A stretch of 36,646 nt of DNA, taken from contig NZ_FQTR01000006.1 in assembly GCF_900128535.1 (NCBI RefSeq), positions 1-36,646 on the forward strand, in the 5' to 3' direction. Numbering within the stretch: the stretch's first letter is position 1; each line of letters starts with the position of its first letter. The position numbers were made by a program, and so were the translations under genes. The notes below the pieces were generated by a model. That model made no database searches. It saw only the letters and a list, made by a program, of their open reading frames with translations, and had not been told where the DNA came from. Positions 28,077-30,187 of this stretch are shown in pieces. The DNA is from a bacterium endosymbiont of Bathymodiolus sp. 5 South (lineage in GTDB: Bacteria > Pseudomonadota > Gammaproteobacteria > PS1 > Pseudothioglobaceae).

Positions 28077-29951
28077 TCAAGGTTGAAACTTAGAAGTCAT
28101 CGGATAACGGCGCTCTTTGCCAAAGGCATTTTGGCTGATTTTTGGCCCTGGGGCACTTTGTCGGCGCTTGTATTCACTATTAAGCACCATTTTAACCACT
28201 CGCTTTACAGTGTTTTCGTCATGCCCTCGCTGCACAATACGCTCAGCAGAATATTTCTTCTCAATGAACAACTCCAAAATAGCATCAAGTTCGTCATATT
28301 CGGGCAATGAGTCCTGATCGACTTGGTTGGGCGCTAGTTCTGCTGATGGCGCACGGTCTATGACGCGACCAGGGATGACATAATTAATACTATTACGGTA
28401 TTTAGCCAAACGATATACCATGGTTTTAGCGATATCTTTAAGAGGCGCAAAGCCACCTGACATATCACCATATAGTGTCGCATAGCCAACTGCCATCTCA
28501 GATTTATTGCCTGTGGTAAGTAAGATTTTGCCAGATTTATTGGATATTGCCATTAGCAGGGTGCCACGAATGCGTGCTTGTAGGTTTTCTTCGGTGGTGT
28601 CGGCTTGTAGGCCGGTAAATAAAGGGGCGAGTTGCATGTTAAAACTACTGATCATGGGGAAAATATTCACTTCACGATAATCAACATTCATACTACTGGC
28701 TTGTGCTTTGGCGTCTTCTACGCTCATAGCAGAGGTGTATTCATAGGGCATCATAATGGCTTGCACATTCTCACTACCCAGCGCATCAGCAGCAATGGCC
28801 AGTGTTAAGGCAGAATCAATGCCACCTGATAAACCAATGAGTGCACCGTTAAACACACCATTTTTTTGCACATAGTCTTTAGTGGCAAGCACTAAGGCGT
28901 CGTAAATAGTCTTTTCTATTGATTCTGTGCTACTTGCCATAATAGGTGCATCCAAAGCCTGTGTTGTTGCTTGAAAGAAGGGCAGTTGGTGAGTGACTTC
29001 GCCTTTGTTGTTCATGACAAACGAACCACCATCAAATACCAATTCATCTTGTCCGCCGACTGCATTGACATAAATAAAGTTTATTTGGTTTTCTAAAACA
29101 CGCTGGCGAATAGCTTGTAGACGCTGATTGTGCTTACCCACTTGGAAAGGGGAGGCATTGATACTAATGATGGTTTGTGCGCCTTGATTGACTGCATTAT
29201 TAACCGGTGTCTCATCCCAAGCATCTTCGCAAATCACGATACCAATGCGTTGTCTTTGACATTCAAACACCAGTGGCATTTGACCAGAGGTGAAGTAGCG
29301 TTTTTCATCAAATACGCCGTAATTGGGTAAATGTTGCTTGTGGTAGCTGCGAACTTTACCATGTTGTATTAAGATAGCACTATTGTACAAGCATTCGTCA
29401 ATGCGCGTAGGGGCGCCAAATATAATACTCATGGCTTCGGGTAATTGTTTGCGTATACGCTCAATTTCGGTTTCCACCTGAGTGATGAATCCCTCGCGTA
29501 AGAGTAGATCTTCTGGCGGGTAACCACAAAGTGTTAATTCTGGAAAAACCAGTAAATGCACGCCTGATTCAAAGGCTTTACACGAAAAATCAATAATTTT
29601 TTCAGCATTATTACTTAAGTCGCCGACAATGGGGTTAATTTGCGCGATTTCTATTTTTAGAGATTCTGAGTCATGTTTGAGGTTTTCTAGCTGTTCTTGC
29701 CAAAATTTGACCTTTGTTTCATTGTTACTGATTTTTGCTTGTTCAAGTTTGGTGTTTGCCACCACTTCAGCAGGGTTAACACCCAAAATGCCTGCAAACA
29801 GCCAAGCATGGGTTTCTGATAGTGCTAATTTTCCTGATTTATATTTACTTAAATTTGACTGATTGATATCGTATTCTTTTGCTATCTTGTAGTCTGTAAA
29901 CCCAGTCTTGTTACGGACTTTAGCGAGGTAGTCCTTAGTTTTTATTGGCAT
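28077..29951 (-). CDS. nadE: Glutamine-dependent NAD synthetase with N-terminal helix-turn-helix domain
   Basis: Amidates nicotinic acid adenine dinucleotide to NAD with glutamine-derived ammonia. Residues 98-about 340 form the nitrilase-type glutaminase domain with triad Glu138 (FPELTLCGYPP), Lys205 (YHKQHLPNYG) and Cys241 (GIVICEDAW). The synthetase domain follows, with the ATP-loop SGGIDS at 375-380. Residues 1-about 65 are extra: a Cro/C1-type helix-turn-helix (FTDYKIAKEYDINQSNLSKY, then LFAGILGVNPAEV), joined by a charged helical linker and resembling phage-type DUF3693-like HTH proteins. There is no in-frame ATG, GTG or TTG in the linker or at the enzyme start, so the fusion must be the translated form. 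It may regulate its own promoter. The gene is convergent with the pabB-like gene. Confidence 0.93.
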   Translation of the reverse strand: MPIKTKDYLAKVRNKTGFTDYKIAKEYDINQSNLSKYKSGKLALSETHAWLFAGILGVNPAEVVANTKLEQAKISNNETKVKFWQEQLENLKHDSESLKIEIAQINPIVGDLSNNAEKIIDFSCKAFESGVHLLVFPELTLCGYPPEDLLLREGFITQVETEIERIRKQLPEAMSIIFGAPTRIDECLYNSAILIQHGKVRSYHKQHLPNYGVFDEKRYFTSGQMPLVFECQRQRIGIVICEDAWDETPVNNAVNQGAQTIISINASPFQVGKHNQRLQAIRQRVLENQINFIYVNAVGGQDELVFDGGSFVMNNKGEVTHQLPFFQATTQALDAPIMASSTESIEKTIYDALVLATKDYVQKNGVFNGALIGLSGGIDSALTLAIAADALGSENVQAIMMPYEYTSAMSVEDAKAQASSMNVDYREVNIFPMISSFNMQLAPLFTGLQADTTEENLQARIRGTLLMAISNKSGKILLTTGNKSEMAVGYATLYGDMSGGFAPLKDIAKTMVYRLAKYRNSINYVIPGRVIDRAPSAELAPNQVDQDSLPEYDELDAILELFIEKKYSAERIVQRGHDENTVKRVVKMVLNSEYKRRQSAPGPKISQNAFGKERRYPMTSKFQP

Positions 29952-29968
29952 AATGTTTAGTTGTATTT

Positions 29969-29997
29969 TTTAACTATTGTTAAGCATTATAGTTAAA
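29969..29997 (-). promoter_or_regulatory. Candidate promoter and operator of HTH-nadE
   Basis: A perfect 9-bp inverted repeat, TTTAACTAT (29969-29977) and ATAGTTAAA (29989-29997), has its centres 20 bp apart, two helical turns, as expected for a dimeric HTH protein. On the minus strand a perfect TATAAT (29986-29991) overlaps one arm, so a bound protein would block RNA polymerase. The start codon is about 35 bases from the -10. The -35 is weak (TTTAAT or TTAATG). A third, near-match half site is at 30024-30032. Confidence 0.55.
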
Positions 29998-30034
29998 TTT
30001 TACCTGGCATTAAAAGGGATTATTTAGTTAAAAA

Positions 30035-30050
30035 TTACCAATAGTGGTAA
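30035..30050. promoter_or_regulatory. Short inverted repeat between nadE and aapJ
   Basis: TTACCA-ATAG-TGGTAA, a 16-base site with 6-bp arms, lies in the 272-base divergent gap. It could be an operator for either gene. The rest of the gap (30051-30187) is AT-rich with nothing else recognised. Confidence 0.3.
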
Positions 30051-30187
30051 AAGATGCATAATTACTTCATAAGTTATTGATATTAAATTAAAGTTTATTA
30101 ATTCATAGCAATAGTATAAAAATTATAAAATCTACTTTAAGTAAGGTGTTTTCAGTAATTTGATTCGCATAACAAAGCTAACTTATG

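Follow-up and report, generated by a model that had tools for sequence, protein, structure and literature searches.

A phage-type DNA-binding domain fused to NAD synthetase in the Thioglobaceae/SUP05 group, and a conserved operator array through which it may repress its own gene

Comparison of sequences across the Thioglobaceae/SUP05 group indicates that HTH-nadE, which encodes a glutamine-dependent NAD synthetase with an N-terminal helix–turn–helix (HTH) domain, probably specifies a self-repressing trigger enzyme with a single target, i.e. its own gene; we put the probability of this reading at about 0.77. The proposal rests on the fusion itself, on the palindromes that precede nadE and their conservation, on the confinement of the array to this gene, and on the joint weakening of array and HTH domain in one clade. 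In the mechanism envisaged, a phage-like repressor domain of the Cro/CI type has been fused to the synthetase, and HTH-NadE dimers would occupy a short array of 17-bp palindromes, in which O1 immediately precedes the −35, O2 falls within the promoter spacer and extends into the −10, and O3 is close to the start site; filling of O2 and O3 would block RNA polymerase, and nadE transcription would drop as HTH-NadE accumulates. The array would serve nadE alone. We infer both that the NadE HTH domain is the binder of the array and that repression is the outcome of array occupancy. The least certain step, which is taken by analogy with trigger enzymes generally, is that occupancy by NaAD, ATP, NAD or glutamine may alter DNA binding, such that repression would track NAD status.

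The window, i.e. the whole 36,646-nucleotide stretch of DNA that was analysed, carries HTH-nadE on its minus strand (28077–29951, 624 residues, ATG at 29951), with an N-terminal Xre/Cro-CI HTH domain followed by CN_hydrolase (glutaminase) and NAD synthase domains. Both enzyme domains are complete by sequence (NAD_synthase, E 4e-70; CN_hydrolase, E 6.5e-25), SGGIDS and the expected Glu138, Lys205 and Cys241 are invariant among the family members aligned, and the protein scores 739.8 bits with PRK13981 (cut-off 479), far ahead of PRK02628, a longer model of 677 positions. The nearest solved NadE relatives are 5kha and 4f4h, which come ahead of M. tuberculosis 3dla, and sequence kinship is with type 2 NadE-Gln of the approximately 540-residue class. 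Type 2 NadE-Gln enzymes of this size class are reported to be dimers (PMC7196632); a dimeric NadE, the oligomeric state here being taken from the class, would suit a palindromic site. A single-chain AlphaFold model of the full-length protein, made from a shallow alignment, is of middling quality (pLDDT 72). With a complete enzyme domain, a DNA-binding domain in the same protein and conserved sites at its promoter, HTH-NadE has, so far as sequence can reveal them, the attributes of a trigger enzyme.

The DNA-binding domain comprises residues 1–92 (29676–29951, minus strand), with a recognition helix assigned by predicted secondary structure to residues 31–39 (QSNLSKYKS; 29835–29861, minus strand). 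It matches HTH_3 at 26.2 bits as an isolated domain (cut-off 23) and at 22.2 bits in the full protein, and it matches two phage repressor families (phrog_4441, E 1.5e-12; phrog_638, E 7e-10); the match to the RstR model NF041951, at 23.6 bits versus a curated cut-off of 80 bits, is that of a distant relative only. The AlphaFold model of the domain has six helices and a pLDDT of 93.9. On alignment of this model by VIA-align the best matches are HigA antitoxins, including the DNA-bound 6chv (Z 8.9, rmsd 2.7, 77 residues), with phage CI and P22 c2 repressors lower in the list; a Foldseek search of the same model against the PDB returned nothing below E 0.001. The lambda-repressor-type fold together with the HTH_3 profile places the domain in the Xre/Cro-CI family.

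Of 83 family genomes, 71, from 11 genera, have the fusion, including all 49 of the clean genomes that are at least 90% complete. Named records show the family to be the Thioglobaceae/SUP05 group; the closest relative that carries a name is a Bathymodiolus azoricus thiotrophic gill symbiont. Outside the family no fusion was found in a class sample of 369 genomes, where, among the matches listed, NadE starts at or after about residue 68 and is without the HTH domain, nor in a phylum sample of 398 genomes, where only a stand-alone HTH protein matched. Within the family, one genome (G009:C1:83890-84178) has the HTH frame of nadE broken between residues 31 and 37 with the upstream operators intact, which reflects either a sequencing error or a recent loss, and another (G005:C1:216187-218041) has the NadE frame broken near residue 552, with the C-terminal part lying in another frame.

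The unit conserved among 71 upstream regions is a palindrome of 17 bp with an A/T centre, TAGKTA-N5-TAMCTA; in a symmetrised, genus-weighted logo the halves appear as GKTA and the five-base centre is about 98% A or T. A palindrome scan finds three copies upstream of the nadE ATG in the window, all of them predicted operators on the minus strand. O1 (TTGGTAATTTTTAACTA, 30025–30041), which is also recovered by a pattern search of the same genome, is centred at −82 relative to the ATG, immediately before the presumed −35, and is the best-conserved block in an alignment of other genera. O2 (CAGGTAAAATTTAACTA, 29990–30006), likewise recovered by both searches, is centred at −47 and its right half enters the −10; TAACTATAAT is kept in 42 of the 71 genomes and in 10 of 11 genera. 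O3 (TAGTTAAAAAATACAAC, 29960–29976), found by the palindrome scan, is centred at −17, at or just past the expected transcription start, and has a weaker right half; its equivalents include TAGGTAAAAA copies in 31 genomes and TAGTTAAAAAATAC in eight genomes of the window's genus. The −10 box, TATAAT (29986–29991, minus strand), is invariant at TAACTATAAT in the cross-genus alignment, and a presumed weak −35, TTTAAT (30009–30014, minus strand), assigned from sequence, lies 17 bp from it. A consensus promoter scan called no promoter upstream of nadE; the −35 is poor.

The sequence-only reading of this region had proposed an autorepressor operator of HTH-nadE, formed by two exact inverted 9-mers, TTTAACTAT (29969–29977) and ATAGTTAAA (29989–29997), with centres 20 bp apart. 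The repeat is there, the only HTH protein beside it is indeed the 624-residue fusion, a perfect minus-strand TATAAT (ATTATA on the plus strand) does overlap the second arm, and the near-match half-site reported at 30024–30032 (TTAGTTAAA, one mismatch versus ATAGTTAAA) is half of O1. The kind of site proposed is well supported by comparative evidence, but the anatomy is wrong: the two arms, given on the plus strand, are not a single operator but facing halves of two, the first being mostly the inner half of O3 and the second mostly the inner half of O2, and the operator region extends over about 29960–30041 rather than 29969–29997. The repeat was rejected as one operator on the count of outward halves at a spacer of 13, which is 18 versus 140 for the 5-bp-spaced palindrome. 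The gap between the arms also varies across genera, the distance between the centres of O2 and O3 being 30 bp for the window and some close relatives and 20 bp for most other genera, a difference of one helical turn, and in genera other than the window's the TAGTTA of the second arm is usually replaced by TAGGTA.

Palindromic arrays precede nadE in all 11 genera. By a simple half-site score, devised after inspection of the alignments (a bias that the held-out model described below and the spacer control limit but do not remove), 140 sites score 17 or more in 70 regions versus 7.8 in dinucleotide shuffles, i.e. 18 times the shuffle rate. These 140 counts are at the 5-bp spacer, whereas the same half-sites at other spacers mostly give 5–40; the 60 counts at spacer 4 are largely the same sites in a neighbouring register. 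The arrangement of sites is not uniform: genera g5, g8 and g10 have four or more tandem sites, genus g3 has a different set of site positions, and in three g1 relatives (G002, G005 and G006) O2 has been rebuilt, with TATAAT inside a GG...CC dyad, e.g. GGTATAATTACC in G005, and not beside TAACTA. The neighbour of nadE varies by genus (aapJ-like; a Sel1-like ORF; argF; in g2 a ferrochelatase region) while the array persists, and the array thus belongs to nadE. Conservation of the arms in relatives that keep the fusion, on which the sequence-only reading had staked its claim, was followed over 71 genomes, and the claim survives.

The positions of the sites bear on the direction of control. O1, the best-conserved operator, is centred about 50–54 bp upstream of the expected start, and the −35 is weak, as in activated promoters; HTH-NadE might then be an activator, or act in both senses, with O1-bound protein aiding RNA polymerase in the manner of lambda CI at PRM and a higher level filling O2 and O3 to repress. 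This alternative is unlikely in our estimation, in that O2 overlapping the −10 together with O3 at the start region is a layout for repression, and in that the upstream site in genus g3 sits elsewhere.

Evidence that a self-repressing NadE would have one target comes from genome-wide searches. A sequence-only array model was built from 18 sequences of nine genera, with the window's genus and g3 left out. Within the window's genus it places the region upstream of nadE first in every one of the 12 genomes, with E values from 2.7e-13 to 4.2e-5; the match in the window spans 29955–30053 (E 1.6e-9). The best match away from nadE has an E of 0.006, in one genome, and the runner-up in the window's own genome one of 0.087. 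In this 2.4-Mb genome the palindrome occurs 11 times when up to one mismatch is allowed; two of these sites, O1 among them, are upstream of nadE. No conserved site was found upstream of nadA, nadB or nadC (about 20 family genomes each), on which ground a wider NAD regulon was rejected, nor upstream of the non-fused nadE of 16 other gammaproteobacterial families, which are a weaker control in that their genomes are mostly less AT-rich. Single sites elsewhere in relatives were rejected as targets; they lie beside unrelated genes and outside arrays, and none was seen at a shared gene.

Sequence by itself assigns no protein to the sites, and an unlinked transcription factor could in principle bind the array, with the NadE HTH domain serving some other role, e.g. 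in protein contacts or oligomerisation. We consider this improbable. The one-gene site set coincides with the one family that has an HTH domain on NadE, and the recognition-helix residues are invariant (INQSNLSK, residues 29–36, in 26 family members), in step with the constant half-site. The HTH domain and the sites also weaken jointly: outside the decayed clade HTH identity is about 68–81% versus 59–72% for the enzyme, whereas in four reduced g2 symbionts (~1.0 Mb) HTH identity is 56–64% with the enzyme still at 67%, and recognisable operators number one or two, down from mostly three or four. Joint weakening is the pattern expected if the domain and its putative operators work together, as judged from one clade and one event; reduced AT-rich genomes shed intergenic sequence anyway. 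Among established NAD regulators, a search of 19 family genomes for the DNA-binding domain of NrtR found none, and NadR is reported to be absent outside Enterobacteriales (PMC5343134); both were therefore rejected as the regulator of the array, and the family may for the same reasons lack the common dedicated NAD regulators, of which these two were considered.

The sequence-only reading had itself cautioned that some inverted repeats occur by chance in AT-rich DNA, and the caution was warranted. The fair test looks for paired inverted 9-mers of any sequence, with no more than 31 bp between them, in dinucleotide shuffles of the 272-bp, 78% AT intergenic region, and finds such a pair in 26% of shuffles; the exact 29-bp pattern, which was picked after the fact, has zero matches. 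Because 26% of shuffled intergenic regions hold such a pair, the inverted repeat alone is not significant, and it is conservation that supplies significance. That the repeat is fortuitous, with the promoter alone conserved, is very improbable and is refuted by that conservation: palindromes at 18 times the shuffle rate recur in 11 genera, favour one spacer and extend beyond the promoter hexamers, the held-out model recovers the nadE upstream region in 12 of 12 genomes, and the divergence of the flanks speaks against a shared recent ancestry of the 11 genera at this locus, which would undo the refutation. Equally improbable is that the conserved sequence works in the messenger leader, as a riboswitch or RNA hairpin, since, although O3 may fall partly within the leader, this is expected to be only about 28 bases long, O1 and O2 are both upstream of the expected start, and an RNA element was dismissed in that Rfam has no match upstream of nadE.

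A self-repressing HTH-NadE would share features with several known systems. In NadR of enterobacteria an N-terminal HTH domain is likewise joined to NAD-biosynthesis enzymes in one protein, which represses NAD genes and answers to ATP and NAD (PMC12421817). By contrast with NadR, in which the enzymes are NMN adenylyltransferase and ribosylnicotinamide kinase, HTH-NadE combines a glutaminase with NAD synthase, acting at the last step; further, the NadR regulon includes nadA-pnuC, nadB, pncB and others (PMC5343134), whereas nadE alone carries the array described here, with no conserved copy before nadA, nadB or nadC. PutA of E. coli, an enzyme with its own DNA-binding domain, confines its binding to its own promoter region and acts as its own repressor (PMC8249747), the same single-target trigger-enzyme layout as is proposed here, from sequence alone, for HTH-NadE; the enzymes and the DNA-binding domains are, however, unrelated, and PutA also serves the divergent putP, whereas the divergent neighbour of HTH-nadE differs between genera. 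In sequence and fold the N-terminal domain is like filamentous-phage and plasmid Cro/CI-type repressors (RstR, phrog_4441/638) and HigA antitoxins. Cro/CI-type repressors typically repress their own genes from several short palindromes close to the promoter. Repressors of the RstR/HigA type are small and stand-alone, whereas the NadE HTH domain sits on a metabolic enzyme, and its score is far below the cut-off of the RstR model. NrtR, NadQ and NiaR also exert transcriptional control of NAD genes, as is proposed for HTH-NadE, but are separate regulators with other folds and motifs, e.g. ttATRCTCannntGAGYATaa for NadQ (PMC5343134).

No description of an HTH-NadE fusion was found in the open-access literature, in which its autoregulation is apparently likewise undescribed. 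If the proposal is correct, the known trigger enzymes, few in number, gain a self-controlled NAD synthetase; a mostly uncultured family of marine sulfur oxidisers and symbionts of mussels and clams gains a small and concrete set of operators; and a phage-type repressor domain has been joined to a core metabolic enzyme and retained family-wide. The reduced symbiont genomes would then provide a natural decay series for a regulator and its sites. A more far-reaching version, which we advance tentatively and with some doubt, is that the NAD synthetase is at once the sensor of NAD status and its own sole target, the DNA binding of the captured phage-type domain being set by whether substrate or product occupies the attached synthetase dimer, an arrangement that would replace the usual NAD regulators.

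Some further observations concern the motif and the domain themselves. Genome-wide, the reversed letters of TAGKTA-N5-TAMCTA outnumber the motif itself by a factor of ~3 to 14, in the window's own genome (71 versus 11 for the motif) and 10 relatives; a general avoidance of TAG/CTA words may explain part of this rarity. A stand-alone HTH protein of 84 residues (L102:2005-2259, G022:C117), about 50% identical to the NadE HTH domain and without the enzyme, is encoded in a genome that also has the fusion; it has, by eye, no obvious palindrome array in front, and may be what remains of a repressor from a mobile element, one related to the donor of the NadE domain. A stand-alone HTH protein of the same type, 34% identical, occurs in another gammaproteobacterial family (L245:1450-1824, G744:C81).
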